A stretch of DNA of 64,000 nucleotides from Hygrocybe punicea (Eukaryota; Basidiomycota; Agaricomycetes; Agaricales; Hygrophoraceae): contig OY744465.1 of the NCBI GenBank assembly GCA_963556145.1, positions 806,001 to 870,000 of the forward strand. Reading direction: 5' to 3'. The notes beneath the pieces were generated by a model, which was given only the letters and a program-made list of their open reading frames with translations, was not told the DNA's origin and ran no database searches. This document shows positions 1-20,722 of this stretch, in pieces. The number at the start of each line of letters is the position of its first letter. The first letter of the stretch is position 1. The position numbers and the translations under genes were made by a program.

Positions 1-90
1 AATTTATCCATCATCCATGGATATTCATCCGGATGCATCCGGATGCATCCATGGTAGTCCCTACTGCATATCTTTTCCACAACACATGGC

Positions 91-750
91 TCAGCTGAGA
101 TGGACAATTCCCACTCCGAGTGGGCCAGCCAATCTCAGCCAACCAATATCTTTCTCCAGGGCAGATGGCTTGGCCAAGGGGTCTATGTTATGAGGGACAT
201 GAATTGGCCAAAGCAGAGGGATATATTGGCCAACCAGTCTGGGTATTTTGGCTGGCCATAGAACATGGATTGGCCAACCAGTTGGGTATTTTGGCTGGCC
301 ATGGCACATGGGTTGGCCAATAACCCTGGGTATTTCAGTTGGCCATGGAACATGGATTGGCTGACCACACTGGGTGTTTTGGCTGGCCATGGGAGATGGA
401 TTGGCAGACCAGGCTGGGTATTTTGGCTGCCCATGGACCATGGGTTGGCTGACCAGTCTGGACATTTCCGCTGACCATGGAACATGGATTGGCCAATCTG
501 GATGGGTATATTGGCTGGCCATGGTGCATGGGTTGGCCAAATCTTTGGGTATATTAGCTGGCAATAGAACATTGGTTGGCTGAAGCCTGGTGGGCACACA
601 GGCTGGCCATAGGAATGGGGTTGGCCAATGTTAGGGATATCCCAGCTGTCCATGGAACACCAATTGACAACAGCTTGTGGTATACTGGGCTCGCCATAGG
701 ACATATTCATAGGTTGGCCAATCCTAGTTAGTATCTTGGCCAAGGGCAAG
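91..750. repeat. Degenerate minisatellite
   Basis: The stretch is built of imperfect tandem copies of a unit of roughly 40-50 bp containing the words GGTTGGCCAA, GGTATTTTGGCTGGCCATGG and CATGGATTGG. Copies differ by many point changes and small indels. Stop codons are scarce on both strands, so several long overlapping reading frames appear. These are a by-product of the repeat and not genes. Confidence 0.85.
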
Positions 751-776
751 GGAGAGTGAGGCCAGGATGTTGACAG

Positions 777-1086
777 ATGTTTTTCAAGAAATGGCTATAT
801 CATTCCTAATGAAATGGCTGAAATTACAAGAATATTTGAGCATGTAGAAAACATGAAAAGCCCAAGGGTCCAACATTAGTCAATTGGATGAGCCTTTGCT
901 CACTTCTTTAACTAGCTTTGAATCAGCTACAATTTAAAGCTGATGTCAAATGAGTGAGCAAAGACTGACCCAATTGACTAATGTTGGCGGAGGACCCTTT
1001 AGCTTTTCATGTCTTCTACATGCTCAAATATTCTTGTAATTTTAGCCATTTTATTAGGAATGATATAGCCATTTCTTGAAAAACAT
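777..1086. mobile_element. Foldback (MITE-like) element
   Basis: Two arms of about 140 bp (777-918 and 945-1086) are inverted copies of each other, starting ATGTTTTTCAAGAAATGG and ending with its complement. A short AT-rich loop separates them. No ORF lies inside and I could not identify a convincing target duplication, so the superfamily is open. Confidence 0.75.
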
Positions 1087-1789
1087 TGGTCATAGCTGTG
1101 GAAACACTAGAGGGGCACTTAGTACATATTGGCCCCAGGTACACTCCCAGAACTCTCACCTTCCAACTTTCCCCCTGCAACTACCATTATTGTCCAGCCC
1201 TGGACAACAAGTATGATGAGGACTGACCACCTCAACTGCTGTTGGAGATGGCACCTTCACACCTAAAGTATGAGTGTTTTTCATTGTAAAGCTTGAATTC
1301 TGAAGGCATTTTCTAACAGCTAAATCCCAGAAAAATTACAATGTACTCCCAAACAGCTATTGTACAATAAATAGTCTCTGCAAGACCCAAGCAATAGAAA
1401 TTGTATTTGACCTAAAAGAAAGCAAAAACTTCATGATTTTGCTGAATTTGGTCATTTTCACTTTATTTTGCATATAATACTTCTTATATCACTTACATCT
1501 TGCAGGACTAATTGTAGAATAGCATACCAGGAGTATCTCATAAATTTTCCAATATTTATTTATCAGAAAACACAATCACTAGAGGCTCACTAGTGCAGAT
1601 ACATTTGAATGTTTACTTTTGTTTGTCCTTAGTTATATTTTCATATATATGACTGCCAACAAATTAGACTGACCCTGAATTGGGTCACATAAATTCCCTA
1701 ATAGGGATTGGCAAGAGTGCTAACATACACTACTAGTACACTGTATAAAGTACAAATCAAACTGAATAATATCCGATTGACACCCATTC
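1087..1789. other. AT-rich intergenic DNA
   Basis: I see no gene, clear repeat or RNA structure here. The stretch is downstream of the minus-strand gene that ends at 1790. Confidence 0.6.
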
Positions 1790-4700
1790 TTATAACCTTT
1801 GTTCAGGACCAGGGCATATAAACGTTTCCTTGTCATAGATCATGGGTTTCAATGCGATGACTGAGGATGCATTATGCGAAGTAGAAGCCCTTGGAAAATC
1901 TGCGAATGGCTTTGGGGCGAGGATATCACGGTATCCTGTCGAGTCTTCGGGGATGCAGCTATATGTCATCGAGGTACAACCATAGAGCGTGATCATATAG
2001 TGACGTCGGTTAATGTGAGTATGGCCGGCAGGAGTGTCGGGGCTTTTCGGGGTCGTTGTCACAACTACTCGTTCGCCATCCTTCATTTCGACCCCAAATT
2101 GCATGACGATGGAAATAATCGGTAGATTCTTCTGGCTCAAACCAACCAATTCGGCATCAGGGAATACTTGGATTGCCGTTTCGGCATTCTTGACCTGATA
2201 TTGGGCCATACTCGTGTTTTCCTCGCTGATGACAGTTGTGAGTGGGTCGCCGAAGAGAAGGGGTATTCCACCATTCATGTCGTATTGGTCGTCAAAAGTC
2301 TGGATGGCCGCGCCGCGTTTGAGAAGCTCCGAACCACAGTGCAATGTGAACGAGGCATGATCGCCAAGCTGTACAAAGTGCGAAAAGTTTACCCATGCAT
2401 CTTTAAACGCTTGCTCCAAGGTTAGGTCACCAGCACAAGCATGAAAAGGCTGAGCATGCCGGACGACCGTCCAGATGTCAGGAGCAAAGAGGTGTTCGAG
2501 AAGCTCCACGAACCGGACCGGACGATGGAAACGCGGGGCGGATGGCTCTTCTCGGTAACACTTCATGATAGCCCGGTCATGCGCAACTATAAGGAGCGTC
2601 CGAGCAACCAGTTCTCGACGTTCTTCACGAGCTAGTAAACCGTCATTGAGTGCTGATTCAAGGATATCCGGAGCATGGTGCATGATTTGGGTAGTTCGGT
2701 CATTCAAGATGCGTGCCGCAGCTTCTGCGAGGATGGGCTCAGACGGATACCCACTCCACATAAAGTCCTGCTCCTTGGGAATATTAAATACAGTGCGCAT
2801 GAAGCTCCTGACAAGCTCAGCTTGCGTCGCACGTGAATTTGAATGTACGGGATCGTAACGGATAAGCACACGACAATCGAGGGCAGCGAGCCTAACAAGC
2901 GAATCCGTAACAGATTTCCCCGATTTCAGCTTCATCTGGGCCAACCCAATGGTCGGGTGCAGAAAAGAGTCATCAGGGACGCTCAGATAGTGCGAGTTCC
3001 ACCTAGAACGTGGTTGACCATTGGGCAGCCGCAGTCCCGAATTTAGTACTCACATGGGACGGCCAAACTTGACTATCTGCTCAAGTTCGCAAACTCCGCT
3101 GAGCGTCAGCTTGCCAAGATCCCTGACCTTTGCCGTAAAGTCCTGGCAAAAGGTATCAAAAGGAAGCTCGAAAAAGGGCGGAATGAGATTCCACCCCGTT
3201 TGGACTCGAAGTGAAGAGTAGTTTGCATCTGTTGGCGCCGACGCGCTTAGACTGGAATTTAGACTGGAATTTAGACTGGAATTGGTGGTCAGAAAAATGA
3301 AGAATATTGGCATCTTCACGAGCGTTGCCAAGACGTGCATAAGGGCAATGTACGGACTGCGGCGGTGTGAAGATTTGCCCCCATCAACATTCTGCAATGT
3401 ATGAGGTTCATCAAAGTAGACCATGGCCACGAATTTGTTTCCGACGTGTCCATGGAGCTCAATGAGACGACGATAAAAGGCGTCGGCGGCTTTTTTCAGG
3501 CGTTTTTGGCGAACATGGAGGACATCCGGGGGCTTAGGTGTGACACTACCAAGGTCGGTGGGTGTCAGAGACTCGAGCTAGCCAACGCATCAGCATAAGC
3601 AGGTAAAACAAAACAGCAACGTACACGTTGTGCAGTTTCAATCACTCGATCATAGAACAAGGCCCTGTTCGTCCCGACATGTGTACCTGACGCGCCGTGG
3701 TTCATCCATTTGTACCATGCCAGTGCAACCTCCGCTGGAGTGCCCTTTTCGTAGGTATTGAGCTCTTCAACCGCTAGATTAAACAGAGCCTCCAAAAAGG
3801 CCAAATGTCTCGTCAACGCCGGTAGTTCGACTACAAATGGCTTGGTGAGATAATCGCGGACATTGTGATCAAACGGAGGATACGCTTGTGAAGAAGAAAC
3901 AGATCAGACAAGTGTTAGACAAGGAGGAGGATGCGTACTTTTTGAACCGGTTGACATCACTTCATGCAGATTGAATGGAAAGGTAAAGCGAGAAGTGGCC
4001 GAGTGGTCAACGAGACGTGACTTGCCCATGCCGGACGACTGCACAATGGAAAATGAGCGATTGTAATATTCTTCGAAGGGGCTTGGCATGTATAGATCCA
4101 TTGTCGTCAACAGGATGTCCGGGTATGGAGCTACATACTCGCACTCGAACGCTTGCTTGAAGTCTGATATATGCGGAATGAGGGATAGAAAGCAAAGGAG
4201 CGTCGATGCTCACAACCCACTAGTTGGCATATCAATGTGAGCATTCTGCCAAGCAAAGAAAGTAAAAGGAGTCCTGACAGTTAGGAGGAATTTCGTGAAG
4301 GATCGACGAGAACTCGTCAGCCAAGCGGGAGTGCTCTGAACGACAGGTGCACATGGGTTCGAAATAAACATGATGGTCAATATTCATGTTTCCGAGCGAC
4401 GGGGCCTACTTACTAGGAGCTGTTGATGGGCGGAGGATCTCTGTATATGCGTTAGACATCATTTAATCTTCATTGAAACGCGGATATCGCACTCAAGCTT
4501 CGTATGCCCTTGAATGATCTGGCCACTCGCGCCGAATCCAACATAATTATCAATTCCGGATGCTTCTTGAGCAAACCCATCGAGTTCTCAACGTTATAGA
4601 ACGGATCGAGTAGTCCCCCCGAGGTTGATACTATCGCCGCGAGAAGCATATTAGCCAAGAAGATAACAGTAGGGTTGGTAGGGTCGGATAATTCGTCGAG

Positions 4701-4958
4701 GCAATTCAGGGGAACTACCTTGAAGACCTTAGCGTCTAAACGGGCATGGGTGGCATCGTCGAGATCGTTCGGCACCATTTCCAGACTTGTTGCGGGGAAA
4801 GAGGTCTCAGGCTCGCTTTCAACGGCAGCGGCAAGCACCATACGATCCGCATCACCAGGAGAATCGTCGACGATCATAGATGACGTTGCTAATTTCGGTC
4901 TACTGGACGAGGTATCTCTTGCTGGGGAGCGTTGTCGCTTGGGCGCTGAGGGCGTCAT
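1790..4958 (-). CDS. P-loop NTPase plus nuclease-like protein, Crinkler-like family
   Basis: The gene reads on the minus strand in about seven exons. The first (from 4958) is a lysine/serine-rich N-terminus. A P-loop follows at about 4014-4047 (SSGMGKSR, preceded by SFSIVQ). A Walker-B-like YFDEPHT lies at about 3403-3425, followed by a hydrophobic strand ending in FLTT. The last exon (1790 to about 3000) ends with a QYQVKN motif near 2180-2215, which resembles the E/QxK core of PD-(D/E)XK nucleases. This order matches the large agaricomycete families related to Crinkler (CRN) proteins, in which an NTPase is joined to a REase-like domain. Introns at about 3891-3937, 3591-3630 and 3005-3050 have good GT/AG ends. 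No stop or frameshift is obvious. The N-terminal exons between 4170 and 4470 are the least certain part. The function in fungi is unknown. Confidence 0.7.
3247..3282. repeat. Three in-frame copies of a 12-bp unit
   Basis: TTAGACTGGAAT is repeated three times inside the exon of the P-loop/nuclease gene. On the coding strand it adds three copies of a four-residue N-S-S-L unit and keeps the frame. Confidence 0.8.
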
Positions 4959-5101
4959 TGGGAAGGGTCAAAGAGGCAACCTACCCCTTTACTATGATGT
5001 TTCACCTCGAGGGGTAGCTGGATGGGAATTTTGAACGGCATCTCTACGGCTTTCTAAAAATATCATGATAGTACATCCCAGTGTAACTTATGACGACACG
5101 G

Positions 5102-5985
5102 TATGCTGTATAAACTGTACATTTATTTGCCGCGGCCGCGGCCGCATTTTGGAGTGACCGCGACTTAAAAGATTTTGAGTAGATGAAGCTATATACCAGG
5201 CTCCTACCAAGCCGTAGTTGGAGAAGGATGAGAGGATTTATCAGGACCCCCGAATATAGGTGGCGATGCCTGCGCGGCATCCGGACCAAAAGTGAGAAAA
5301 AAAGTAGCCTATGCCTGCTTTTATCCGGACTAAAAGCCCGAAAATCTAAAAAATGCCACCGTATATATCCGACCAGAATTTCGTAAAATCGTCGAAGCCT
5401 CATCCATGTCCGGACTAATCTAGGGTAATTTCCCCCGAAACTTTTATACATTTCACCCCAAATCAAGGCCGTAATAGGCTTACCCTACCTTCATCCATGT
5501 CATTTTAACTCGGTGAGATTAATGTAATACATCCAAGGGGGAGCGCAATGCACCTCAAAGTTTTATTTCCCCCCCCTGCTCGATGCCTAGCACCCACTTT
5601 GAGACAAAGGCTATCCCTATCAGTGACGATGAGGACTTGCTTAGACTACAATGCATATGCATGAATCGTATGGTTTGGTGGGCCTACGGCGATTTTTTCT
5701 TGACGCCTCCGCCAAAGTCCGTCCCAAATTCTGAAAATTGGCCCCATGCCTGAGTTTATCCGGACCATTTCAAGCAAATTTGAATATTTTTATCCGGACC
5801 AAAATGGGGTCGCCTGCGCAGGCCTCGCCACTTATATTCGGGGGTCCTGATTTATCCCACTGCATAATTCAAGGCTTTCCCCGAGATTTGTTTACTCCAC
5901 ATAACATAATTTTAAACTCAGTAACTTTGATCCTCTCGATCCTCTCCAATACGGCTTGTGACAAATGTTTGTAAACAACGCGTGC
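5102..5985 (+). repeat. Left TIR of element A, split by a nested element
   Basis: 5102-5242 and 5849-5985 together align with the reverse complement of the right end. The GC-rich palindromic core is at 5129-5145. The interruption 5243-5848 is a separate insertion with its own target duplication. Confidence 0.85.
5243..5848. mobile_element. Nested non-autonomous TIR element, 606 bp
   Basis: The ends are inverted copies (AGGACCCCCGAATATA... and its complement), with internal copies of the word TATCCGGACC. The repeat GATTTATC flanks it at 5235-5242 and 5849-5856. If the end is read as CAGGACCCC, the duplication is 6 bp (ATTTAT). The 8-bp reading would suit a hAT-like element. The right TIR of element A lacks this insertion and so supplies an empty site. 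No gene is inside. Confidence 0.8.
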
Positions 5986-6049
5986 CACAATTCTGATAAG
6001 TCCCAAAATAGTATATTGAATATCATATTACTGAGACCTCTTCACCCAA

Positions 6050-9000
6050 ATGCCTGAAAAAAAGCGAGAACCCATCCCCTCTCTCTTACAAATCCGAGAA
6101 GCCACACAAAAGAAATTCGGGCATCTCCCGTGCCTTTGGCAAGCCAAAATTGTCCAATCTGTTCTCCAGCGCGATAAGGATGTCATCCTCATTGCGGCTA
6201 CAGGATCAGGCAAAACACTAACCTTCTATATGCCCCTCATCTTCTGTGCACAAGGAATACAGATAATCTGCACCCCTTTAAATATTTTAGGATCCCTTAA
6301 CGTCCAGGCCCTTGCTGAACAGGGCCTATCGGCCATTAATGTAACGGTGAGAATGCAACCCCGGCGACCTTCAGAGTACGTGTTATTCTTGAGCATGATC
6401 ATCCAAGCTAATGAAAAACGTACCAGGCAATTGCTAGCTTGCAGTATCGCATCATATTCACCAATATTGAGATACTTATGAAGGATTCGGGAGGATTCTC
6501 GGCACTCTGGAAGAACCACCACTTCACAGAGAAACTAATCAGTATTGCCTTTGACGAGGCTCACTGCATTAGTCAATGGGCATCGTTCCGTCAGGATTAC
6601 CGGGAAGTAGAAAGGTTACGTCACCTTCTACCTAATAACATCCCTTTCTACATCGTATCTGCTACTCTCCCAAATCTGGTTCTAGGCGATGTAAAAAAAT
6701 CCCTGCGGATGCAAGAAGATAAGTTGCATTTCATGCATCGTTCAAATGATCGTCCAAATATAGACCTTACCGTATGAGAAATGGTACACCCTGCGAATTC
6801 ATTCCTCGATCTAGCCTTCCTGGTGCCCAACAACCCTCCGGCAGACTGGAAACCCGCGAAGTTCCTGGTTTTTTTTGACGACATTGCGGAATCTGTACGA
6901 GCAGCCAAGTTTCTACGAAGCCGTTTACCTCCGGATCATCGTGATTTGATTAAGTGGTTCAATTCTGACATGTCTAGTCATTTTCGGGAGAAGGGGTGTG
7001 AAGACTTGAAACTTGGATGTACTTGGGGTCTCCTATGCACAGACTCCTTCGGAATGGTAAAGCATGATAAAGTAAACCTTTGAACCTGTCTAATTGAGAG
7101 CACAGGGTGTGGACTTGCTGGATATTGAGCTTGTTGTCCATGTTACGGATCGCTTCTGCAGCGGGCTCCGGCAACAATCAACTTAACAGGGGATTGGCTT
7201 CCAGAGGAGAGAACAGCAGCTTTCATTGTTGCTTACAGCTAAGACAACACTGCTAACAGGGGGGGTCAAGGTCTAGTGTCATTGCGAGCCGTGGGGGTTA
7301 CCCAAAACAAGATGAGTCTGCCCCAAGAACCAGACTAAACGTAAAGAAAGGAAAAGAAGAAAAAGTCCGAACCAACAACAAGAACAGTATATATAGTGAC
7401 TGGTCTTGAGGGGAGGTAAATAGAAATACAACCATGAAGCCACAACATGTCCAACTCTACCATGTGTTCACCATGAGGCGTACATGAGGCGTCCTCATGT
7501 CGATGTTCTCGCGATCCAACTGGAGGCCCGGGTGTCGTTGAGGATAGAAGAGGTCCGGATGACTCGGATGATTTGTCATCGGATCATGTGACATGCAGAA
7601 TTGCCAATTCGGGGTCTACACTTGCTGTAACGGGCAAGTGTGCAGTTTGGCAAGTGCATTGCACGGTCGGGTCGAAGATGGGTATCGTCCAGTGTGGGGT
7701 TGGTGATGAGAGTGTCTTGAGGTAGCGTGGATATAGTGGCAAGGTTGGTATGAAAGAAAATGAAGGAATGTATAGAGGAAAAAACCAACTAGGACAGTGG
7801 GCTAGTCGAGGTCAGACATGTGAACAGCATAAGCTGTACCGGACGATGATGTCTGTGTCAATGACGTATCGAGGGGCGGTGTCTTGTCCTGTGTGTGGAA
7901 CAATGTGGTCCACCTGATGTCAGTATTTGTCCAAGAAAGGGTATCATTGTAAACAAGTGTGGGAGGTATCAAGATTATGGATGGAAAAGGATAAATGAAC
8001 GTGGGTCCAGGTTTCGAGTCATGGCATGAGTGACAAGCTGTGGGAACAAGTCGTCGGGTACTGCATTGAAGCGGTGTCATGCGAACAATATACGATAGGG
8101 GTTGGTTCACTGTTTGGGAAGTCGTATGGTCTGTGGTCGAAGTCCAAAAGAATGTGCTTCGGCAATGGTCGGATTAGAGAGAACAGTGAAATGTCCCGTG
8201 ATCGAGGATTGTCCAGGGCATGCGTGCAGGTGAGGAATGTCGTCGGATCGTCAGGGAGGATAATGGTGGGCACAGGGTATGAATATGGAAACCAAATATC
8301 CGGGAATGGCAATTGTCAATTACGTGTCGATATATTGTCAAGGTGGACGTCGGGTGTATCAATGGCGGAAGGGTTTCGGTGCCAATGCCAAAGATAGATC
8401 ATAACAAAGTAGAAACCGATCAGGAAGGTGATGGCAATGCTGCCAATAACAATTACGGTAATGAGCTGTGTTGGGAGTACAGCCATTGCGAATCGGTTTG
8501 TCGTGGGATGAAGTCAACAATATGTCAGGGCAAGGGAAAAGACAATGTCGGTGACGTCCATCGGCAAGGAGACTATTCAGGTACAACAAGGTCACGTGGG
8601 AGATGTCCATGGTCGGTCTGGATTGTTCTAGAAGAAGGGACAAAAAGAGAACAAGAATAAGAAAATACAAGGATGTCCAAATGAAGAAACAATGACGTTG
8701 AAAGGAAGACAAAGGACAAAAATAAATGAAAAAGGAAGGTGTGCAGTGCAGAATCGTCATGGTGGGTATCGGAATGGGCATCGGGGTTGGAAGTGGAGTT
8801 GGAAATGTAACAGTCCAATGGAAGGTCTCCTGTGACATGTGTACACTCTGGCAGCGATTCGGTCGCGCTGGACGTGATCTATCTGTTCGTGGGAAGGCAT
8901 TACTACTGGCCGAGCCCAAATATTTTGATTCCCACAAGGGGGGCACGAAGGCAAAGGCGTCAGGCAAGAGGAAAGCGGAGCAGACATTTGGTGAAGATGC

Positions 9001-10123
9001 TCCTACCAAAAAAAGGTGTCCGAATCAATCCACTCCCCAAGCCTCCTCTAGCGGCGTTCCGATTGCTGAGCCTGTCGACAAGGAGATAGCGAAGAATGAA
9101 ATAGAAGAATACAAAAGATTGCGCTTACTGTACAATCAAGCGTCAGCTCATGCACAACGGACCTCGGAAAAGAACAAAGTCTTGGACCCCGTGTTGGACG
9201 CATTTGTGAATGCGAAGACTCGGCCGCAGAACTGTTACCGACTCCCAGTAGAAGCGTTGTTTGGAAACAAAAACCTTGGTGAGTAGTGGAAGTAAAGTTC
9301 AATTGCTTCCGTGTCTTACCTAAGTTAGTCGACGATTCCAAAGAGTGCCGTACAGACCTTCGCAACGGTTGCCCGCGTTGCACCTACACGACTCCACGTG
9401 TGTGCTGCGAGTGCTGCACTCCTGAAGCTTTCATCGATTTTGCTCCTGTTGACATACCTTTTCGACCAACTCCTCAGCCTGCTCGCTCTCGCTTGATGGT
9501 CTACAAGCATGAACAGCAAGACCACAATCTCCGAGCGGCTCTGCACGAATATCGGCAACGCCGAATGCTCGAGAAGTTTGGAGAGGCTGTCTTGTATGAC
9601 ATCAGCCCTGGCGTGTTCATGACCAACACCATCCTCGACCGCATTACCGACTGCGCCCACTACGGCAAGGTTGTGGACACCGAGCAACTCCAACGCGAAA
9701 CTCGCTGGCCATGGGGAAACGATGACGCTGCAGAGATCCTTGCAATTGTCCGTCGTTTTCCCCCGAAGACTTTGTTGACGCCTCTAAGCAGCTCAGCTCC
9801 TCTACAACCACATCGTCCCAATTCTTCTGCGGCGGTGGGTTTAACCACTGAGAAAACGAAGCGTGTCGTACATTGTAGCGCTTGTAAGCAGGCTGGTCAT
9901 ACTGGTACGTATGCATATCTACTGTAGTCTTATATATGCTCAATGAGTGATCCTAGCTCGCAACCAAAACTGCCCCCGCCGCACTTCGAGTTGCCTCGGG
10001 TTATCTATGCATTCAGAAGCTGAGAACATACCTCCGCCAACGGCTGCTACTCAGTCAACTCACCCCGCGCCGCCGAAAACGTTGATCACGACAATCGATC
10101 CCTGTCTTTTCTATGCTGCCTAG
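6050..10123 (+). pseudogene. RecQ-like DEAH helicase with C-terminal zinc knuckle, disrupted
   Basis: An SF2 helicase of the RecQ-like type expanded in basidiomycetes. Motif I (AATGSGKT) is at about 6194-6217, the DEAH box at 6553-6564, the SATLP motif near 6655 and the FFDDIAESV region near 6870. CTDSFGM lies just before an intron at about 7056, and the QRFGRAGR motif VI at about 8850-8875. A cysteine-rich segment follows at about 9370-9420. A retroviral-type zinc knuckle (CSACKQAGHT, split by an intron at about 9904-9957, then a final C) leads to a stop at 10121-10123. Three lesions are visible: a likely one-base loss in the A-run at 6414-6418, an in-frame TGA at 6775-6777 where relatives have arginine, and an LTR-type insertion at 7141-8812. 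The copy cannot encode an active helicase. It lies directly inside the left TIR of element A. Confidence 0.85.
7141..8812. mobile_element. Solo-LTR-like or non-autonomous LTR insertion in the helicase gene
   Basis: The segment starts TGTTACGG, ends GTAACA and is flanked by the direct repeat GTCCA (7136-7140 and 8813-8817). This is the TG...CA plus 5-bp duplication pattern of LTR retroelements. Removing it with one GTCCA copy restores the helicase frame exactly. I see no gag/pol protein and no pair of internal LTRs, so a long solo LTR or an internally deleted element is likely. Confidence 0.78.
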
Positions 10124-10173
10124 CACAGCAAACGACGCGCTACATTTTCAGCAATTTCACTATAAATCTACCA

Positions 10174-12925
10174 CTATAAATCTACTACTATGTCTTCCTC
10201 TTCTACCACCATTGTTTCATCTATTTCAAGCTGTTCTTCTCCGCTCGTATTAGTGTCTGGCTGCAGTAAAAGTGGGAGACCTTTGTTGAATATATCAGGA
10301 ATGGAATATTTGCTTTCTCGCCCGGCATGATGCTCATTAGTGCCATGTACACACATATATTTTTGCAACACACGGAAAGTCCGAGCGAGATCTGGAGGTA
10401 TGTGTCGTGAAGTCAGTCCTGGCAGTAAAAAGTTCCGCTCTATATTAGAGTGGCAGCTGTGGTATATTTCAATGAGAGACGACTCAGCGATGACGCGTTG
10501 TTTGGTATAATTCGAATAGCGACCTCTGAAAATGACCTGAAGAAGAGCAAAGAGTTTGCAGGACTCATTGTGGAGGGCAAGTACTCACCTTAGTTTTGAG
10601 ATTATGAAATTCCTGCACCCAGTCTGGCGCCCTGAAGGCACCTTCTTTGCCGGTGGGGTTGACCAGAATGTTGTATCGAATTGCACGACGAAGCGGTTCG
10701 GGATAACGCCAGTGAAGGTCACTGAGAAATTTTGACATGCTCGTTGCATATTTGTGTTTGCCGGTTGCTTTGAAAATAATAATCCATGGCGGGAAAACCG
10801 TTTCTAATCGGCCGATGTCACCATAATTCATGGCATGGGTGATCTCCTTGTATAGTAGGAAATAAAGGTGCATGAGTAGGATGTTTTCTCGCTGAGCATC
10901 ACGTTGAACCGGTGCCAGTTCCCGCAGGGCATGTATATCGACTGTTGAGCATTGACCTGCAACATACCCACGAGCAAGATCGTTTGCGAGACCCTGAAGG
11001 AAAGAGTATGAAGGTTTAGAGTTGGCAAACGTCTCCAGCGAATCCCAGTGAACATTCCTCTTCTTCAATTCTGTTCGCCAAGCATCTAATCGCAAAGCCG
11101 TCCCTTCTTGAGTGATCACCTCGTGCATGTGTCGGAATCCAGGTTTCGAACCAATCTTGTGGGTCTCTTTGGGGCGGTGAAGTGCAACAAAATGCATCAG
11201 GGAGTTATCATCGATCTGGGCATCCTTCTTGTCCAAGAAAATACGCCACATAGCGTCCGCACAGGCCATTTTGAGGTGGAAAAGTCCTAGGACGAAAACG
11301 AGGAATTGAAATTGCCGAGTGGGTGTGTCTTCAATCGCTCTTCGTTCCAACATTGCCTCCAATCGTTCCAAGGTGGACAAATCACCATTGAATATTATGA
11401 CATGTTCCCGGATGTCAATGTTCATCACATCCAGGATTTGTTGATGATTTTCACTCACACTACCGATCCCTCCTTGCTCCATCAGATTAGACACTGCTTG
11501 TATGTTTCCCGAGACCTTCGACTGATTGATATCCATTGCTTTAACTGGTGCGTGACGCATCTTGACTACAGGTATCTTGTCAACAAAGTCCGGTAACCTG
11601 ACATTGTTCTGAAAACAGGTGAAGTAGGAGGGTCCATGTTTGCAAAGATCGCAGAGGAAGACCCAGGCCTGGAATCGTTCTCGTCGAGTGAGACCTGTGG
11701 GGTGTGCCTTCTCTGGGTGTAATGTGAGAAAATCAATGAAGGTTCGTGGGCAGGGAAGCGTTCTGATATCTATTGTCGTGTTGAATGGAGATGTTTGCCA
11801 GAGATTGTGCGAACACTTCAAGTCGTCAACGGTGACTCCATGTTCCAGGAAGATGAGTGTGCCGGAAGTCATATGGGTGAGCGTGGTCATGGATTTTTCG
11901 ACAGTGGGGGTATTTGTTTTGAAGTCAATATCGAAATTATCGTATGTATAACTGACAGACAGGGTTTGGCCCATCTCCCGAAGTGTTTCACATGTTTCAG
12001 CCGACAGTGATTCTACAGCGCGAAGAATTGTCCGGCCTGAGATTGATACACCCAAGCATGCCAAAGACTGAATAACTCTCTGGGGAGTGTTGCACGAGTG
12101 GAGGAAAATACCGTAGACACTTTGCCGTATGTTGCATTTTTGGTTCGAGCTCTGCATCATTATGCTGATGATGCAAGTAGCTTTCTAGCAATGAAGATGG
12201 CATTAACTGGTGTGAACTGTAGGCGACAATGAACTACTCACCAAATTGATGATAGCCTTGCGTTCATCTAGAGTCTTGGACTGCCAGTGAGGTGTCGAAG
12301 GAGCATCAAGTGGATCTTGCTGGCTCAAATCACCATCAACATCGTGCCAGAATTCATTTTCATCTTCTTCCTCGTTGCGATCGGTTACTGATGGATTGGT
12401 GTCACAGGAGAAATTGCTGCCCGATCGGCGTTTCACAAGCCTATGATCTGCAGAAAGGAGGCTGGTGACTGTGTGCCAGAGTGCAGGAGCGGTGGCCTCA
12501 ATCTTCTGGGCCAGGTTTTTGATGTGGAACTCACGAATCTGCTCAACAGAGGTGTGTAGGGCCGAGAAATGCCAGCCATGGTTTATATCAGTGAGACCTT
12601 GGATGGATTTAGCGTGGCTACGGTTGACTAGTGTGAGTGCCCAATTGAAGATATCTACATGTAATGCAGGATGATGGATGAGATTCGTGAGGAGGTCAAT
12701 GAAGCCATGGATAAAGTCTTGTACAAGGGGATGATGTTCTAATGGATCGTGGAAGATGGATAGGAAGAAATCACAGAGTGTAGCATGGTTCTCAGAGAAA
12801 CACTGCAGGATGGCTGCAATTGTACTTGCATTGATCATCGCGACCAAGGAGGACAGTATTAGTCTATCTATGTCTAAATCGATGAGGATAAGGGTGTGGC
12901 GCATTGTGTGGCGCATTGTTTGCAA
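10174..12925 (-). CDS. DUF6589-family protein, candidate transposase of element A
   Basis: There are three exons: 12925 to about 12255, about 12176-10590, and about 10530-10174. The introns are clean, and the frame stays open to a stop at 10174. The sequence matches the fungal DUF6589 family as I know it. It has a YDNFDID motif (about 11929-11951), a GDLSTLER motif (about 11360-11390), a GLFHLKMACADAMW motif (about 11255-11300) and a C-terminal GRYSNYT...IERNFLLPGL segment. The spaced acidic residues (YDNFD, then NGD) are reminiscent of a DDE/RNase H core, but I cannot assign a triad. The first Met lies within the right TIR. A later Met, for example in LVAMINAS, is also possible. The gene is intact while its partner helicase is broken, so this copy could still supply protein. 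Confidence 0.75.
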
Positions 12926-14073
12926 ACGTTTGTCACAAGCTGCTGTAGAGAGGGTCGAGGGGGAACTAAGTTGCTGGGTTTAAAACTGTGTCATTCGGAG
13001 TAACTGAGTCTCGGGAGAAGCCTCAAACATGGTGGGATGAAGCCCCTCACCCTTGCAGCGGCTTGGTAGGAGCCTGGCTATATACATGAACTATATCCAT
13101 GTCATTACTGGCGCATAATATTACATTTTTGTTTGCGAGGCAAGGTGTTTTGCACACAGGGCTCCAACTGTAAGAATCGGCCTGCGCAATGTTGCCGACA
13201 CTCTCCCACTGCCCATTCAATGACCTTGCAAAGCCAGGAACATGTCAATAGATATGGCTACTGCATTTTCGAGGTGGATTGCGGGGTGTGGGAGGTGTCG
13301 GTAGGGTGGCCATCCTCGTTGTTGGCACTGTCGCACTGTCCTTTTTTCCTTGTTGATATTGTCTTCAACCGTGTGACCCGCATCTTCGTGAGTCATCTAC
13401 ATCTTCGTCCGTCCGCATCTTCGTGAGCCGTCCACGTCTCCCTGTTATCCAGGTTGTCGTTAATGGTGTCATTGCTGTTTGAAAATCGTGTGAGTTTCAC
13501 GTAAAACTTCGACTTTCCTAAATTGGTACGGTAGAAGCCGGCTGCAAATTGCAAGGTACAACCAATGAAGCGAGGACAACCAACGAAGTGAGGACAACCA
13601 ACGAAGCAAGGACAACAAGTACAACAAACAAGGACATGAGAACGAAGGCGATGGTCTGAACAACAGCATTAACGATAAGGTGGAGGATGGCAAGGACCAT
13701 GACATAGGCAGAGGCAGCAGCAGTGCGACAGTGCCAACAACGAGGATGGCCACCCTCCCGACACCTCCGACACCCCGCAATCCACCTCGAAAATGCAGTA
13801 GCCATGTCTATTGACATGTGCCTGGCTTTGCGAGGTCATTGAATGGGCAGTGGGAGAGCGTCGGCAACATTGCGCAGGCCGATTCTTACAGTTGGAGCCC
13901 TGTGTGCAAAACACCTCGCCTCGCAAACAAAAAATGTAATACGAAGATGTGCCAGTAATGACATGGATATATAGTTCATGTATATAGGTTCATCTACTCA
14001 AAATCTTCAAGTCGCGGTCACTCCAAAATGCGGCCGCGGCCGCGGCAAATAAATGTACAGTTTATACAGCATA
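12905..14073 (-). repeat. Right TIR of element A, split by a nested element
   Basis: 14073-13981 joined to 13084-12905 is the inverted counterpart of the left TIR. The GC-rich core is at about 14028-14045. The interruption 13085-13980 is a separate foldback element. Confidence 0.85.
13085..13980. mobile_element. Nested foldback element, 896 bp, with 255-bp arms
   Basis: The arms 13085-13340 and 13725-13980 are long inverted copies, starting CATGAACTATAT and sharing blocks such as CACAGGGCTCCAACTGTAAG. TATATA stands on both sides (13079-13084 and 13981-13986). The left TIR of element A has a single TATATA at the matching point (5190-5195), so the 6-bp duplication is confirmed by an empty site. 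The middle contains short GAAGCGAGGACAACCAAC-type repeats. No gene is present. Confidence 0.85.
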
Positions 14074-14145
14074 ACACGGAGTTTTACAAGTCCGACAATA
14101 CCTGGAGGTTTGAAAGCTCCTACAAGTGGCATTTCTTCAGTTCCT
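14074..14145. other. 72-bp island of older DNA between elements A and B
   Basis: It begins with the ACACGG duplication of element A and ends with the GTTCCT duplication of element B (14140-14145). It seems to be all that remains between two independent insertions. Confidence 0.7.
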
Positions 14146-14173
14146 TATGAGTGTTTTCACTGGACAAAATTAA
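14146..14173 (+). repeat. Left 28-bp TIR of element B
   Basis: It starts TATGAGTGTTTTCACTGG and differs from the right end at one position (T versus G at position 7). The GTTCCT duplication precedes it. Confidence 0.7.
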
Positions 14174-14847
14174 AATTATCACCAGTGCTCACCGGTGATC
14201 ACTGGTGATCACCCATTTGTACTCATTATCACCACTACGCACCCATGATCATCAGTTATAACCTGGAAGCACTTATTATCCACAGTGAGGGTTGCCAAGG
14301 TTGGAAGTCAACACACACCAGGTTGGAAAGTCACTTCTCTCCTATTGTAGGTCGAAGCTCAGGTCAATGTTAATCAACCTAATGTACAAAGTGACTTTTC
14401 AACCTATTTTTTCAACCTTTCACATGTCAGTTAGTGTATCCGACAAAGACAGCAAAGATTGGGTAGGTTTGGTCAGAATTCCAATTGGGGTCAGGTCATA
14501 TCAAACGAAGTCAGGGGGCCATATGCTTGGTAGACAGCACCGGGAAGATCCAGGCTTGGTAGCCCTTCATTCACTCCTACTTTCTCAGACTTGTATATTA
14601 AGCCCGAGTGCAGAACACTTGCACAATTGCAATGCCTGACAAGATCTGACTATGAGCTCCTGCCAAACTCATGATCAGACTTGTGATCGGTTGCACATGA
14701 ATATGGTGCAACAACTTGAAAGTACTATTAGTACAGAGTTACAGAGTATAAAATAATTGTCCATTGTGATAAATTATGAGGCTGCTGTCGTATACATTGA
14801 TCATAAGAGTAAAAGAGAATATACCCTTTCTCCATTGTCCTCAAAGG
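14174..14847. other. Left subterminal region of element B
   Basis: 14170-14290 holds repeated GGTGATCAC, TCACCAGTG and CATTATCACC words that could be transposase binding sites. The rest shows no supported gene. Confidence 0.5.
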
Positions 14848-15711
14848 TCACCCGAGTACTCCTTCTTTGTCCAAATCCACGTCATAAAATGATTCTAAGC
14901 CGCTCGCATCAGACTTGAGCTCGGACTCGCTGTTGTCCGAGTAAGGGCAAGGATGCTGAGGTGAATATGGTACAGTACTAGTGTCGTGGACATCGGGGAA
15001 AGTTGATGATAGTCCTTGTGAATTAATCTCATTGAGAAGCTCCCCCAGCTGCCATTCTGCAAGCACGAGCTTGCCCTTCACCGCTTCTTCCCCATCACGC
15101 TCGGCCTGCAGATGTAGTTCCGCCTCACTGATACGTTGGACAGCTAGTCTCTTCTTGGCTAATAGCGTTTTGCGAACAGCACGCGTGATGGCGAGTGCTT
15201 GTTGTGCTTGGTCATAGGCGCTGGGTTTGTTTTCAGACTGGAGCCTGCGCAGTACTCCTCGTAGGATTGATATTTCCTTTAACCATCTGATAGCAACACG
15301 CTCCTCCGCCGCTAAGCGACTGCGTGCAGCACGGAGAGTGGCGAGACTTCGCTCTGCCAAGAACTCCTTGATGTCAAGCTTGAGGAATCTCGGCTCCCAT
15401 TGCCAAGATTTGTCTGGGCAAGATTCAGATGGTTTGGGAGATGATGATAAGATGTGAGGACTAACAGATGCACTAATATTGATGCTCGACGGTCCTGCGT
15501 GGTCGTAGATGTCATCGGAGGACAGATAGAGTCGGGAGACGGAAAATGGTGAGTTGGGCAGATGCTTTTGAGATGGTGTGGAAGTTGGTGAGGGTGGTGT
15601 ATGTATATGAGTTAGTGATGTTGGCCTGCGGGTGGGTGGAAAAGAAGATGGGCCCTGGCTTGGATCGACGGGGGTCGATAGGCCGACAACTAATGAATTG
15701 GAATCGAACAT
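14848..15711 (-). CDS. Hypothetical coiled-coil protein, copy 1
   Basis: An uninterrupted 287-residue ORF. The first 100 residues are rich in Pro, Ser and Thr. The middle (about residues 110-215) is Ala/Leu/Arg/Glu-rich and predicted by eye to be a coiled coil (LAERSLATLRAARSRLAAEE). The tail is acidic and Ser-rich (SESELKSDAS). About 790 bp of it (14887-15680) recurs at 26424-27236, where the frame is broken. I do not recognise a named domain. Its position in element B and the duplicate suggest a transposon accessory protein. Confidence 0.55.
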   Translation of the reverse strand: MFDSNSLVVGLSTPVDPSQGPSSFPPTRRPTSLTHIHTPPSPTSTPSQKHLPNSPFSVSRLYLSSDDIYDHAGPSSINISASVSPHILSSSPKPSESCPDKSWQWEPRFLKLDIKEFLAERSLATLRAARSRLAAEERVAIRWLKEISILRGVLRRLQSENKPSAYDQAQQALAITRAVRKTLLAKKRLAVQRISEAELHLQAERDGEEAVKGKLVLAEWQLGELLNEINSQGLSSTFPDVHDTSTVPYSPQHPCPYSDNSESELKSDASGLESFYDVDLDKEGVLG

Positions 15712-15929
15712 TTCGAGTGTGACTTATGTAATTGTGTTGGTTTTCAGGGTAGAAAAATATATAATCAGAAGACAAATCGCGACATATATTGCACACTACA
15801 GAAACACCATGTGAAATACAAAAGAAAAAAAAAGACTGGCCACAGTACCAAACCCGTACTACCTACAACAGAGGTCCTTGGAGATGAAAATTAATCACAG
15901 TCTGGGAATCAAGAAGGTGAAGGTTTTTG

Positions 15930-17504
15930 TGTAATCGTTGTAAAACCTGCGTTGGCGGGAGGTTGGCAACCACAATAGTCTTCTCCGGGCAGTGTGAAGC
16001 ACTGGTATGCAACTTAGATTAGAATGGGAAGGGGCCATGATGACTCACCATGCACGTGCAAACGAAGTGGTGAGTAATTCATCAAGGAGCGGTCCATGAT
16101 AGGGATGGTCTAGCATCCCAACGAGGAGCAGAAAATACCACATATATATTGGATTGAACGTAGCATAGTTGAAGGGGATGTCCACCTTCACGCCAGTCAC
16201 ATAATGCATCGCCCCGCAGTGTAACTGGAAAAAAAGATTAGGAAATCACCAGGGCAGAGAGTAACTTGAGATATGCACCGTTGCACAAATCAACACAACA
16301 CACACAACAGCATATCGACCACCAAATCTTGACGTGTAGTTGATTCCAAGCGCTCCTGCTGATTGAAAGAGAAAGTATTCCGTCATCTCGTATATAATCG
16401 GACGATCGAATCCCCGTTGATTACCCTGTCGAAATTGTTAGTTGCCACGAGCAAGAAATCTAATATTGTGCACTAACAAGATTGTCTGTCGACAGACAAA
16501 CAAGCTGTAACTTATTACCGATCAGATCAGCGACACGAGCCGCAATGTCAGTTGGTGCCAGATCACGTTCCCCACTGCCTGCCAGTTGGATTTTTGTGTT
16601 GATTTTGTAGGTCGAAAGAATCTTGTCCAGACACTTGATTTTGAGGTCATGCTTCTTGGCTTGCCAAAACCTGCTGATCTAGAACGAAGGGTTTAGTTGT
16701 TCATCATACCACCAGTGCCACTTACGACATTGATCATCTTCTTGTCCGGCGACAAATTTACTTTGTTGAATCAGTAAACAGAGATGGGTAAACGTAATTA
16801 GGAAAATTACACGGCGCATTATAATGTGCTCTGGCATAGGAAAACACCTCGGAGCAAAGCTGGGCCTTCTGCTTGTCCTTGGCAAGAGCCGGGCCATTAA
16901 TAATACGATGGAGCACAAATTCGTGCTTCGAGAGATTCATGATATTTTCATATTCGGGGGAATCCGTTATCCCTGGGTTTAAGAGCGGTGTCAGCGATCG
17001 GTCATATGGCACCGATCCACGGGATTGTGCCCGACTCTCAGAGTGTGACGGTGTTCTCAGGCCAGCAAAAGTGCGGTAAGGAGAGGAATTGTCACTGGAA
17101 GGAACAGATGGAAAGTGAGTGGTAGGATACACGGTGGTGGGTGAGGGCATGGAGGTCGGTCCAGCAGGCAAGGACAAAGCGGCAGTATATATGTTGCTAG
17201 AAACAGTGGGAATGTCACCAGGAAACGACGGTATGACTGATCCAGGCTGGTGTGAGCCTGGGGGAAATGAAGTGTCCTGAAAATGTTGCGAACTAACACC
17301 TGGTGCGGGAATGGACCGCGCTTGCGCCATGGCACGAAATTGGTGTGGGTCATGAGGTGCGAGGTTGTGTAGGTATTCATTTGGGGGCACGGGGTATGGT
17401 GCAGGCTGGTACGTGGGGGTAGGAACCGCGTAAGGGGAAGGGCGGTGTGCGCTGGTAGGCGGAATCATGGAATGATAAGTGAATTGATATGCATCGTGAG
17501 GCAA
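15930..17504 (-). CDS. Pro-rich protein with DUF6532-like C-terminal region
   Basis: The first exon (17504 to about 16810) encodes a Pro/Ser/Tyr-rich leader, then SKHEFVLHRIINGPALAKDK...SEVFSYARAHYNAP. Further exons on the minus strand cover DLKIKCLDKILSTYKI (about 16640), GFDRPIIYEMTEYFLFQSAGALGINY (about 16350-16430), LHCGAMHYVTGVKVDIPFNYATFNP (about 16130-16230) and a short tail near 15930-16000. The F-x-RP-II, ALG-x-x-Y and AxHYVTG pattern is like DUF6532 proteins, which are common in agaricomycetes and often found near transposons. Exon edges are approximate and the family call is tentative. The function is unknown. Confidence 0.45.
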
Positions 17505-18456
17505 CGTAGTCGAGTGCGAGCTATATAGAGCGGGTTAGTGAAGCACTGGCAGTCGGACACAGCAGACGAATCATACGTCAATGGGGGCACATCAGTGGGA
17601 TCGCATTGGGAATCGGCAGCAGATTGGGACGTTGCATACGCGAAAGAAGCAGCAGTAAGGGCATCCGATGTGCTAGTAACAGTGTGTTGGACAACAGATT
17701 ATCCGGATAGAAGACAAGTTATATACTTAAAATCGTATACTCCAGCTGCGTCTGGGTGGAGTTGGAGTTGTGTGAAATAAGGATGATCAGCAAAATCGAT
17801 ATCTTCACGGCTGACTTCTTTGGGTATGTCGTGTGTTGGGTCCATCGTTTGTGTTGGTTGTGAGGTCTTGAGGGATGTCGTCGAGGATGGGGGAAGAGCA
17901 CCTGCTCCGGATTTGTCCGAGGGGTCCAGAACCCTTGGGTGTACACGGTCTACACAACTTCAGAACTTCATATTTTGTTACATATCGGCCGAGTACATAC
18001 CGCGTCCTCAAATTCAGAAGTGTAAGTGAACGTGGACGGCACTTTCGACGTCGACCTTGACTTTAAGCATTGAAGCGCCTTGCAAGATAGATGTGAATGA
18101 AAGACCTGGGGTACCTTACGTGCTCCCGTCCGCAAATTTCTCCATGGAGTTATACACGCCTAGCACGGCAGGTGAGGACGACAACATTCAGAAGTCGACA
18201 TCGACTTGTGGAGTTCAAGCAGAGATTTTTGGTATATAGTCTCAGCCGAAGACAAAGTGAGGCATCAAATTTATTCATTATTTATATCAGGCTCACTGCA
18301 AGCGCTGTGGAAGAGTTTCTAAACGTGAAAAATGGGAAAACAATATTTAAACGTGTTGAGAAATGATGAATTCAACGAGGTTTGAAACAAAGACAGAAAA
18401 TTGTCATTTCGGTGGTATGGATTTCACGACAGTATCCTCCCGGGCACAGGGAATGC
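17505..18456. other. No supported gene
   Basis: Short overlapping ORFs exist on both strands. None has a recognisable motif or clear exon structure. Part may be the promoter of the minus-strand gene starting at 17504. Confidence 0.5.
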
Positions 18457-19720
18457 TCAATTGTCAGTTGTCAGATCAATGATTTCAACATCGTTGGCAC
18501 CTTGGCAGTTATGAAAGGTTGTAGTCCTTCGCGTCATATACTTGCGGCAATCGTGACATTTGGAAAACAGTTCTTGAAAGACATGCTCTGTCAGTCCTGG
18601 GTCCGAGATGTCATCGAGCTGCAGAAGAAGTTCAAAGCAAGATTCTGATTTGGATTCAGATATGAATGTGGGTATGGCTGCTGTTGGTGCCGCTAAATCA
18701 TGGTAAGAACGAGAGGATGATATGGACACCAATATCGGTGACATACGAGCAAAAGGTGGCAACGATTGTTCACGTGAACGACCAGCTGACGTTGCGGAAG
18801 CAGATTAGCTTCATGAAAACATTCTGGCTTGAAGCTAACCTACCACAATGTTGGGGACACTGTACCACCCGATCTACTACAGATCCAATATGCTTTTCGA
18901 CCTCCTGCAGCCTACGGGCTGCAGAAGACTGCGATTGGGGTGTCGCAGGTGCAGGGACAACATTCGCTGTGTCTTCTTCATAGTGCGTCCACGTCAGCTA
19001 AACAGATGACAATGATAAGATCTTACCTCGAGGAGGATAACGCCTCACTACAAGGCCTATCTGATGGTAGAGATGTTCCAGGCAAACTGTACATACAGCC
19101 ATGAAGCAGATTTCACCAGTTTTTGTCATTAAAAACTCACCCCAGTACTGGCATTGACCTGCTGCACAGGCAGCTATATATTTGCCCGCAGATGGCCCAG
19201 ACGTAGCCAAGAAAATTGCCGATTCCATGTAAGAGGTTTCGTCCGACTTGAGCAAGGCACATAAGCAGCAAGGACCCTGGAAGTCGTGCGAGCGCCGATA
19301 ATCAAGAAGGTTGGACGGAGTAACCCGTTCACTGGCGTCATTCACAGGCCTGACACGTGTCATGAGCATGAGAAATAACAGATGAGCAAATAGATCTTTA
19401 CCAATGCCAGGGCTGTAAATCATTTTCCGAACGATCGTAATGGAGTACAGCATGGACCAAGTGTGCACTTCGTTGATGTTGGAGGACCCTGCTATAGGCT
19501 CGCGTATGAAGGGTCGGAGACGACGGTTCCGTGCTGACTTCTCTAGAAGCCACAGGCATCGTTGGGCCAGCATTGAAGATGTCAAAAGGCAGTGGATTCG
19601 GAGTGCTCTGGCCCAGCACACTGGATCGAGTAACAGGACCCGAATGAGAAACCGGATTGCGAGTGCGAAGATGTCTTTGGGCAGGCATGGAAGGCGATTC
19701 GCTGACTTGAACACATCGAA
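18457..19720 (-). CDS. Cysteine-rich zinc-binding-like protein, multi-exon
   Basis: Reading on the minus strand from about 19720, an N-terminal Ser/Pro region is followed by a segment with GPCCLCALLKSD...LATSGPSAGKYIAACAAGQCQYW (about 19145-19295). Its C-x2-C...C-x4-C spacing is like the GRF-type zinc fingers seen in fungal transposon ORFs. After an intron (about 19065-19144) comes a short VVRRYPPR exon and a charged linker. The last exon (from about 18770) ends with a second cysteine cluster, CHDCRKYMTRRTTTFHNC, and a DVEIIDLT tail that could be a SUMO-interacting motif. Exon borders are estimated. The role is not known. It sits in element B between the DUF6532-like gene and the inverted repeat. 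Confidence 0.45.
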
Positions 19721-20722
19721 CAGGCCCTATATACATGCTCGACGCCAGAGTTCAAGCCCAGACAACTCAAAAGAGTTAAGGGGGTTACCGACAGGCGGAA
19801 ACGAGAGTGCGAGCTGAGACGATCATCGGCTAGAATTCAGGAAGCAGTAGGGGAAGTCATGCACGCGTATACGCACCAGTCACTCGGATACAGACGATTG
19901 ACAATATATGTTTAAATGTGAGTCCTCGGCTATTCTCAGTGATGAATTGATGGAAGTGTTCTCAGGGCGAGAGGGACTAACCTAAAGGTAGTTGTGAGTC
20001 CCAGTTTCAAGGTACCAGATCAACGCAGGTACCATGGAATTCGAATCCATCTCACGCAATCCAGTTTCGGTATCAGTGGTGACAATCTCCACCCAGAGGC
20101 TCCCTACACAACATTGGTTGATCAGTGCTGATGAATGGGACAGTCATCCATTACCTCTGAGATGCCAACGGCTGCAGTAAGACGGACAATTGGTACTCAA
20201 CATCTTCACTGCTAAAACTCCTGCTAGAGGTGTATGGACGCATCGATATCTGGGTGATGAATGTGGTGTGTTTTCGGCTCTGCGGCTAGCAGGTAATTGG
20301 CATCCTCTCTTCTCCCCTGCCCGTGAACCAATGGTAGCAATGGCCTACAGAATTTTGTCATCATAGGACGCTTGGGTTGTGAACGCATCGTACTCACTTC
20401 CAATGATTTATGGTGTCCTTCTGGCTCGCGTTGCCAGGCGAGTGACACATTTGTACAGTGTTCGTTCAACAAAAGACGAAGAATGGGTACCGGTACAAGA
20501 AACAATCTACTTGAGTCCACTGAATAAAATCCATCATTTCATCGCTGTAAATCTACTCAAAACGTCAGAAAATAACAGGCGCATTAAATAACTTGATTAG
20601 ACCTACGCAATTTCAGACCGGCAGGGAACAAGCTTGAGGTCCTCCGAGGGTGGCGATCTTCTTGACTATTCTGGTTTCCGTCAGCCAATCATGACTTGAA
20701 CATGTTCAGGCCAGGATCTTAC

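Follow-up and report, generated by a model that had tools for sequence, protein, structure and literature searches.

AcademH is said, after Kojima in 2020, to be the helicase-bearing lineage of the Academ superfamily. Kolobok elements duplicate TTAA at the target, P element and hAT elements duplicate 8 bp and MULE (MuDR) elements duplicate 9 bp. The target duplications of AcademH were given as 9 or 10 bp in the available text of PMC10045372, and AcademH was called low-copy in fungi in that of PMC10799480. Recognisable domains, such as PF00270 and recQ_fam, were reported in 1568 of 1938 fungal Academ copies, and because of these domains the copies had been annotated as host genes (available part of PMC6416283). 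Going by the accessible parts of PMC6416283 and PMC10045372, fungal transposons with a helicase (Academ/AcademH) have been published before. KolobokH was described as a fungi-only group carrying a RecQ helicase downstream of the transposase domain, and a red-alga Kolobok was described with RecQ on the complementary strand (available part of PMC9587614). The present analysis concerns a stretch of 64,000 nucleotides of Hygrocybe punicea (contig OY744465.1, positions 806,001 to 870,000), referred to below as the window (C7:806001-870000 in a genome of 92.2 Mb and 42 contigs), which contains a transposon with a RecQ-like helicase gene and a gene of the Pfam family DUF6589.

The RecQ-like helicase and DUF6589 genes were found to belong to one DNA transposon, and the gene pair was found to be robust. 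The transposon is a two-gene class II element of about 5.6 kb without nested insertions and is most likely AcademH (probability about 0.77); this fit rests on the host, the helicase and the duplication length, AcademH being compared by description only. The initial annotation of the window had also joined the two genes into one element, and this proposal was borne out by their genomic linkage and by bounded elements.

Linkage of the RecQ-like and DUF6589 genes

The genome was found to contain at least 72 DUF6589 loci in at least two subfamilies; the loci of both genes were counted by merging exon matches across gap lengths set by hand, the counts being lower bounds. A helicase match was present within 10 kb at 45 of the 72 DUF6589 loci, the chance expectation for the helicase core being 0.97. 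The nearest helicase core was convergent at 40 loci, on the same strand at 3 and divergent at 1 (44 loci), and one DUF6589 locus was linked via the helicase C-terminal domain alone. The gap measured 1687-2457 bases in 25 of the 40 convergent pairs. A DUF6589 neighbour was found at 43 of 59 helicase-core loci and at 19 of 20 helicase C-domain loci. The convergent order of the two genes in the window, as initially annotated, was confirmed (Table 1), and the suggestion that the element lies behind the expansion of both families agrees with the linked fractions in this genome.

Among public proteins, 23 of the best 120 helicase matches were found on contigs equal in size to that of a DUF6589 match (best 120 of 804), the shared contigs including those of 5872, 6152, 6884 and 12829 bases. 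Two lists of best DUF6589 matches, one query per subfamily, shared 1 such contig. The second-subfamily DUF6589 list also shared 1 with the helicase list, a low overlap that would not be surprising, the helicase query being a first-subfamily protein. Species names agreed in all 21 named DUF6589-helicase partner pairs, and the partner genes of Bondarzewia mesenterica (EW146_g2695 and g2697) lay two locus numbers apart. The pairwise distances of both proteins were correlated across the 23 partner pairs (r=0.77, partly reflecting the relatedness of hosts) and across the nine Mycena partner pairs (r=0.87); in neither case did any of 2000 permutations give so high a value.

Against the linkage, no partner was found at 27 of the 72 DUF6589 loci and at 16 of the 59 helicase-core loci, 4 of these 16 lying 572-909 bp from a CAGGCTCC end. 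The copy number does not fit AcademH, which is called low-copy in fungi whereas at least 72 DUF6589 loci were counted here. The lone loci would also suit DUF6589 and RecQ as independent host or selfish genes gathering in repeat-rich regions. That reading is given scarcely any credence in view of the convergent order at 40 of 44 loci with its narrow range of gaps, the common terminal inverted repeats (TIRs) and duplications, the linkage elsewhere, even on contigs of only 5872-6884 bases, and the correlated divergence of both proteins.

Element ends and target site duplications

The transposon in the window was found to have a net length of about 5.59 kb after the removal of two nested insertions with their duplications. 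Relatives of similar length were L032 (5555 bp), L034 (5579 bp), L035 (5609 bp), C40:1091860 (5590 bp) and C7:1383324 (5674 bp), other copies being longer. The TIRs of the window copy measured about 174-181 bp at 74% identity, computed without a nested 606-bp miniature inverted-repeat transposable element (MITE), and TIRs were also found in L030, L031, L032, L034 and L035. The first subfamily was found to start with CAGGCTCC, whereas the second (L030, L032) had the termini TARTCTCG..CGAGAYTA.

Exact 9-bp duplications of varied sequence were found in all 12 DUF6589/RecQ elements bounded at both ends, namely the window copy, L030, L031, L032, L034, L035 and six copies defined by retrieved ends (C7:1383324, C34:4664550, C40:1091860, C3:1678708, C6:7945925 and C7:6179039), the gene content of the latter being taken from match coordinates. 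For 10 of the 12, the CAGGCTCC motif was the sole criterion for placing the ends; L030 and L032 are not independent, the end scan having retained only pairs with flanks agreeing at 7 or more of 9 bases. The gene-bearing loci L029 and L033, with at most one end seen, were excluded from this count.

The motif CAGGCTCCTNCCNANCC was found 92 times in the genome, against 3 times for the reversed pattern, and neighbouring matches less than 20 kb apart formed 21 inward pairs and none of any other arrangement. The duplication test covered 17 of the 21 inward pairs and also L034, whose left end departs from the motif; the pairs at C7:1837151, C7:4974503, C7:6305814 and C33:5614739 stood outside the test. 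The duplication was exact in 15 cases and had 8 of 9 identical bases in 3, whereas mispaired flanks, the control, had on average 2.5 and at most 7 identical bases of 9 (n=182). Seven of the tested units were only 312-1082 bp long with the same ends as the full elements (5 exact, 2 with 8 of 9), and we infer that they are non-autonomous derivatives moved in trans.

The first base was a purine in 17 and the last base a pyrimidine in 15 of 20 nine-base duplications, a bias that amounts to a weak palindromic target preference. For the L031 copy, TAGTCTCG at L031:549 was considered as the left end and was dropped, as the CAGGCTCC ends give an exact 9-bp duplication. An inverted repeat of 161 bp (98.8%) was found at L030:783-943 and 8101-8261, outside the L030 element; to judge from this sequence, the L030 copy, like the window copy, may lie inside another inverted-repeat element.

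The MITE around the window copy

In the initial annotation the element was placed at 5102-14073, with 270-bp TIRs and an ACACGG duplication, which would make it a single element of 8972 bp. Both the matching ends and the duplication are present: the outer arms were found to match each other in segments of 68 nt (99% identity) and 28 nt (96% identity), with ACACGG copies flanking them on both sides. The outer repeats (5102-5195 and 13980-14073) belong to a separate MITE family of about 1.07 kb, and so does the 6-bp duplication. When the outer 132 bp were searched against the genome, 40 matches were obtained, and 24 of these could be arranged as 12 inward pairs spaced 1.04-1.23 kb. These 12 short units (L014-L025) were all found to start with TATGCTG, the family ends being TATGCTG..CAGCATA, and a perfect 6-bp duplication was present in 9 of them and imperfect or unclear in L016, L021 and L024. 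Eight further loci were retrieved by the outer TIR (L009-L013, L026-L028). With six homologues at E<=1e-3, DUF6589 and RecQ were not matched in any of the 20 outer-TIR loci (L009-L028); a match of the window helicase open reading frame (ORF) 8726-9286 to L027 (E 2e-8, 31%) was not upheld in this search.

The left junction in the window was found to read GCTATATAC followed by CAGGCTCC, and the right junction GGAGCCTG followed by GCTATATAC and the remaining MITE sequence. At the place where the window carries the element start, the short units read GCTATATACATGAAC or a near variant. When the MITE halves of the window were joined at GCTATATAC, a sequence of 1083 bp was obtained. Eleven of the 12 short units aligned with it at 83-97.5%, either along its full length or up to 3 bases short of its end, and the exact 25-base empty site was found in 10 of the 12. 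The entire MITE interior was found between the right end of the helicase element and the outer right arm. Since the outer ends surround gene-free units and the empty site is undivided in them, the element was inserted into the MITE. The single 8972-bp element, which draws on the close match of the outer arms and the flanking ACACGG, is very improbable given these empty units, the displaced MITE interior and the 9-bp duplication around 5197-13076.

The 270-bp TIR is therefore made up of about 95 bp of MITE end joined to about 174-181 bp of element TIR. Both genes start at the inner boundary of the element's own TIRs or close to it, and not directly inside the outer TIRs of the initial annotation. 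None of the outcomes that the initial annotation had named as fatal to its proposal (unlinked genes elsewhere, TIRs unique to the locus or a DUF6589 fold without a nuclease-like core) was found for the gene pair; the outer TIRs were found without the genes. The case illustrates that boundary calls may go astray where MITEs are nested.

The MITE family, with long TIRs and 6-bp duplications, resembles IS3EU in its ends and duplication length, IS3EU of rust fungi having TAYGG..CCRTA ends and a 6-bp duplication in the available part of PMC12730594; no autonomous partner of the family was recognised. Larger units with the MITE ends were found at L009, L010 and L012/L013, enclosing uncharacterised sequence of a different kind (about 5.9-17 kb), and the family seems to be a repeated landing site.

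Table 1. Coordinates of the transposon, its genes and the surrounding repeats in the window
Feature	Position	Strand	Remarks
Host MITE 6-bp duplication, left copy	5096..5101		ACACGG
Host MITE, left part	5102..5196	+	outside the element; its final 9 bases form the duplication
9-bp target site duplication, left copy	5188..5196		GCTATATAC; not split in empty MITE copies
DUF6589/RecQ transposon with its nested insertions	5197..13076		7880 bp; ends CAGGCTCCTACCAAGCC..GGCTTGGTAGGAGCCTG; 9-bp duplication
Element's own left TIR	5197..5991	+	about 181 bp, interrupted by nested 5243-5848; alignment, 74% identity to right TIR
Nested MITE in left TIR	5243..5848		606 bp; 8-bp duplication GATTTATC at 5235-5242 and 5849-5856
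RecQ-like SF2 helicase gene, broken	6050..10123	+	start and stop codon inferred
In-frame stop in helicase gene	6775..6777	+	ORF 6415-6777 ends here; homologue match runs on to 7056
Probable solo long terminal repeat (LTR) within helicase gene	7141..8812		TGTTAC..GTAACA, 1672 bp; 5-bp duplication GTCCA at 7136-7140 and 8813-8817
DUF6589 gene, predicted transposase	10174..12916	-	877 aa; exons 12916-12242, 12184-10589, 10536-10174
Transposase core for alignment and folding	10565..12184	-	539 aa
Element's own right TIR	12903..13076	-	about 174 bp; comparable TIRs in L031, L034, L035
9-bp target site duplication, right copy	13077..13085		GCTATATAC
Host MITE, remaining part	13086..14073	+	outside the element
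Host MITE 6-bp duplication, right copy	14074..14079		ACACGG

The two predicted proteins

The DUF6589 gene was found to match PF20231 (E 8.9e-87). It is readable as three exons separated by GT-AG introns of 57 and 52 bp, and translation from the first ATG (12916) gives 877 codons uninterrupted by a stop; starts at 12904 or 12838 are also possible, and homologues begin near residue 25. The protein was 62% identical to the homologue P0001 over window residues 35-758. The fold of the core was predicted confidently as RNase-H-like of the DDE type, with a helical insertion placed after the fifth strand and ahead of the last conserved-acid helix. The nearest solved structures were those of the P element and Hermes, at 9-12% identity in the structure matches, and the bacterial transposase ISCth4, which we take to be an IS256-like relative, was also among the matches. 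Within the core, the conserved acids D82, D268 and either D456 or E461 are candidate catalytic residues, the third acid being ambiguous. The predicted fold and the conserved acids in the motifs YDNFD and NGD, which the initial annotation had pointed out, suggest that DUF6589 is a DDE-type transposase, the role already given to it in that annotation.

A profile search of solved structures with DUF6589 gave none at E<=1, the BFVD fold search gave nothing at E<=0.001, and no DUF6589 relative was confirmed in the scan of IMG/VR. The protein search returned 804 DUF6589 proteins at E<=0.001, and among the best 120 the named ones were only 'hypothetical', 'uncharacterized' or 'DUF6589'. No mention of DUF6589 was found in the literature search, the scope of which did not include Repbase, and the assignment of DUF6589 as the transposase of a helicase transposon may be new in wording.

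Two plus-strand pieces of the window were found to match DEAD helicases, and the inferred stop codon of the helicase gene (10121-10123) is separated by about 50 bp from the DUF6589 stop codon. As read from its sequence, the helicase gene of the window is broken by the in-frame stop and a probable solo LTR. The five helicase homologues scanned all contained DEAD and Helicase_C domains, a CCHC zinc knuckle was present in two of them (above its cut-off once), and RQC and HRDC domains were not listed in any of the five. The best NCBIfam match was TIGR00614 recQ_fam in all three homologues compared, below its curated cut-off, and the solved structures nearest to homologue P0241 were WRN and RecQ proteins.

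The ends of the probable solo LTR and its GTCCA duplication were taken directly from the window sequence. A probable solo LTR of this kind (1.67 kb) recurs within DUF6589/RecQ elements or next to them, with similar copies at or close to L027, L033, L035 and L036. The nested 606-bp MITE was found to have the ends AGGACCCCCG..CGGGGGTCCT and was judged hAT-like by its 8-bp duplication length. A scan of positions 1-20000 of the window against Rfam gave no match.

Comparison with described transposons

The DUF6589/RecQ element was found to share with AcademH the fungal host, the helicase and the TIRs, with a duplication of 9 bp here and 9 or 10 bp in AcademH, followed by the predicted RNase-H-like DDD/E core of DUF6589 as a further likeness. 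A literature search for a description of Academ with a 9-bp target duplication gave nothing useful.

The element could also represent a separate superfamily without kinship to Academ, in which a transposase of the P-element/hAT type had acquired its RecQ-like helicase independently. The predicted fold lends itself to this, as P element and hAT (Hermes) transposases are the best structural matches and appear to share an RNase-H-like fold with a helical insertion; so do the termini CAGGCTCC or TARTCTCG, the absence of DUF6589 from the literature search and the dozens of loci as against a low-copy AcademH. Helicases have joined other transposons too, KolobokH being an example in the available part of PMC9587614. 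The P element and hAT differ in their 8-bp duplication and the lack of a helicase gene, whereas the DUF6589 elements have 9 bp and a helicase. A separate superfamily is considered unlikely, since helicase family, duplication length and fungal host coincide with AcademH and fungal Academ as far as these are described in the published parts available; if it were correct, the element would be the so far unrecognised source of two large 'hypothetical' mushroom gene families.

An assignment to KolobokH, that is, a Kolobok-type fungal transposon with a RecQ helicase, is judged highly unlikely. KolobokH is likewise a RecQ carrier known only from fungi, and the red-alga Kolobok shows that the helicase can lie on the complementary strand (both in the available part of PMC9587614); but Kolobok elements duplicate TTAA, whereas varied 9-bp duplications were found in all 12 bounded gene-bearing elements, and the KolobokH helicase is placed downstream of the transposase domain whereas it is a separate convergent gene here. 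MULE (MuDR) elements are similar in their 9-bp duplications, with the structural match to ISCth4 as a further likeness, and differ in that no MULE Pfam match was found in four DUF6589 proteins; these were scanned with hmmscan (the window core and three homologues) and gave PF20231 only, and a MULE was rejected.

Proposed mechanism and implications

The transposon, most likely of the AcademH group, is marked by TIRs, 9-bp duplications, a convergent gene pair, many dispersed copies and short same-ended non-autonomous copies. In the mechanism proposed, DUF6589 would bind the TIRs, cut or nick them and join their 3' ends to the two target strands at positions 9 bp apart. The helicase may be a travelling accessory that unwinds the element ends or aids the repair or replication of excised or joined DNA. 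The window copy was inserted into a MITE, and its left TIR holds another MITE. As its helicase is broken and its transposase open, this copy would move only with an outside helicase, if a helicase is needed, and for the same reason the window copy alone is uninformative on the need for a helicase.

The unexplained Pfam family DUF6589 would become a predicted transposase for which candidate catalytic residues can be named. The element also explains dozens of apparent RecQ-like genes in one mushroom genome. In gene tallies, the DUF6589 and RecQ-like families should count as transposable elements. Two subfamilies with exact ends, followed by short non-autonomous derivatives for one of them, provide a basis for a transposition assay.

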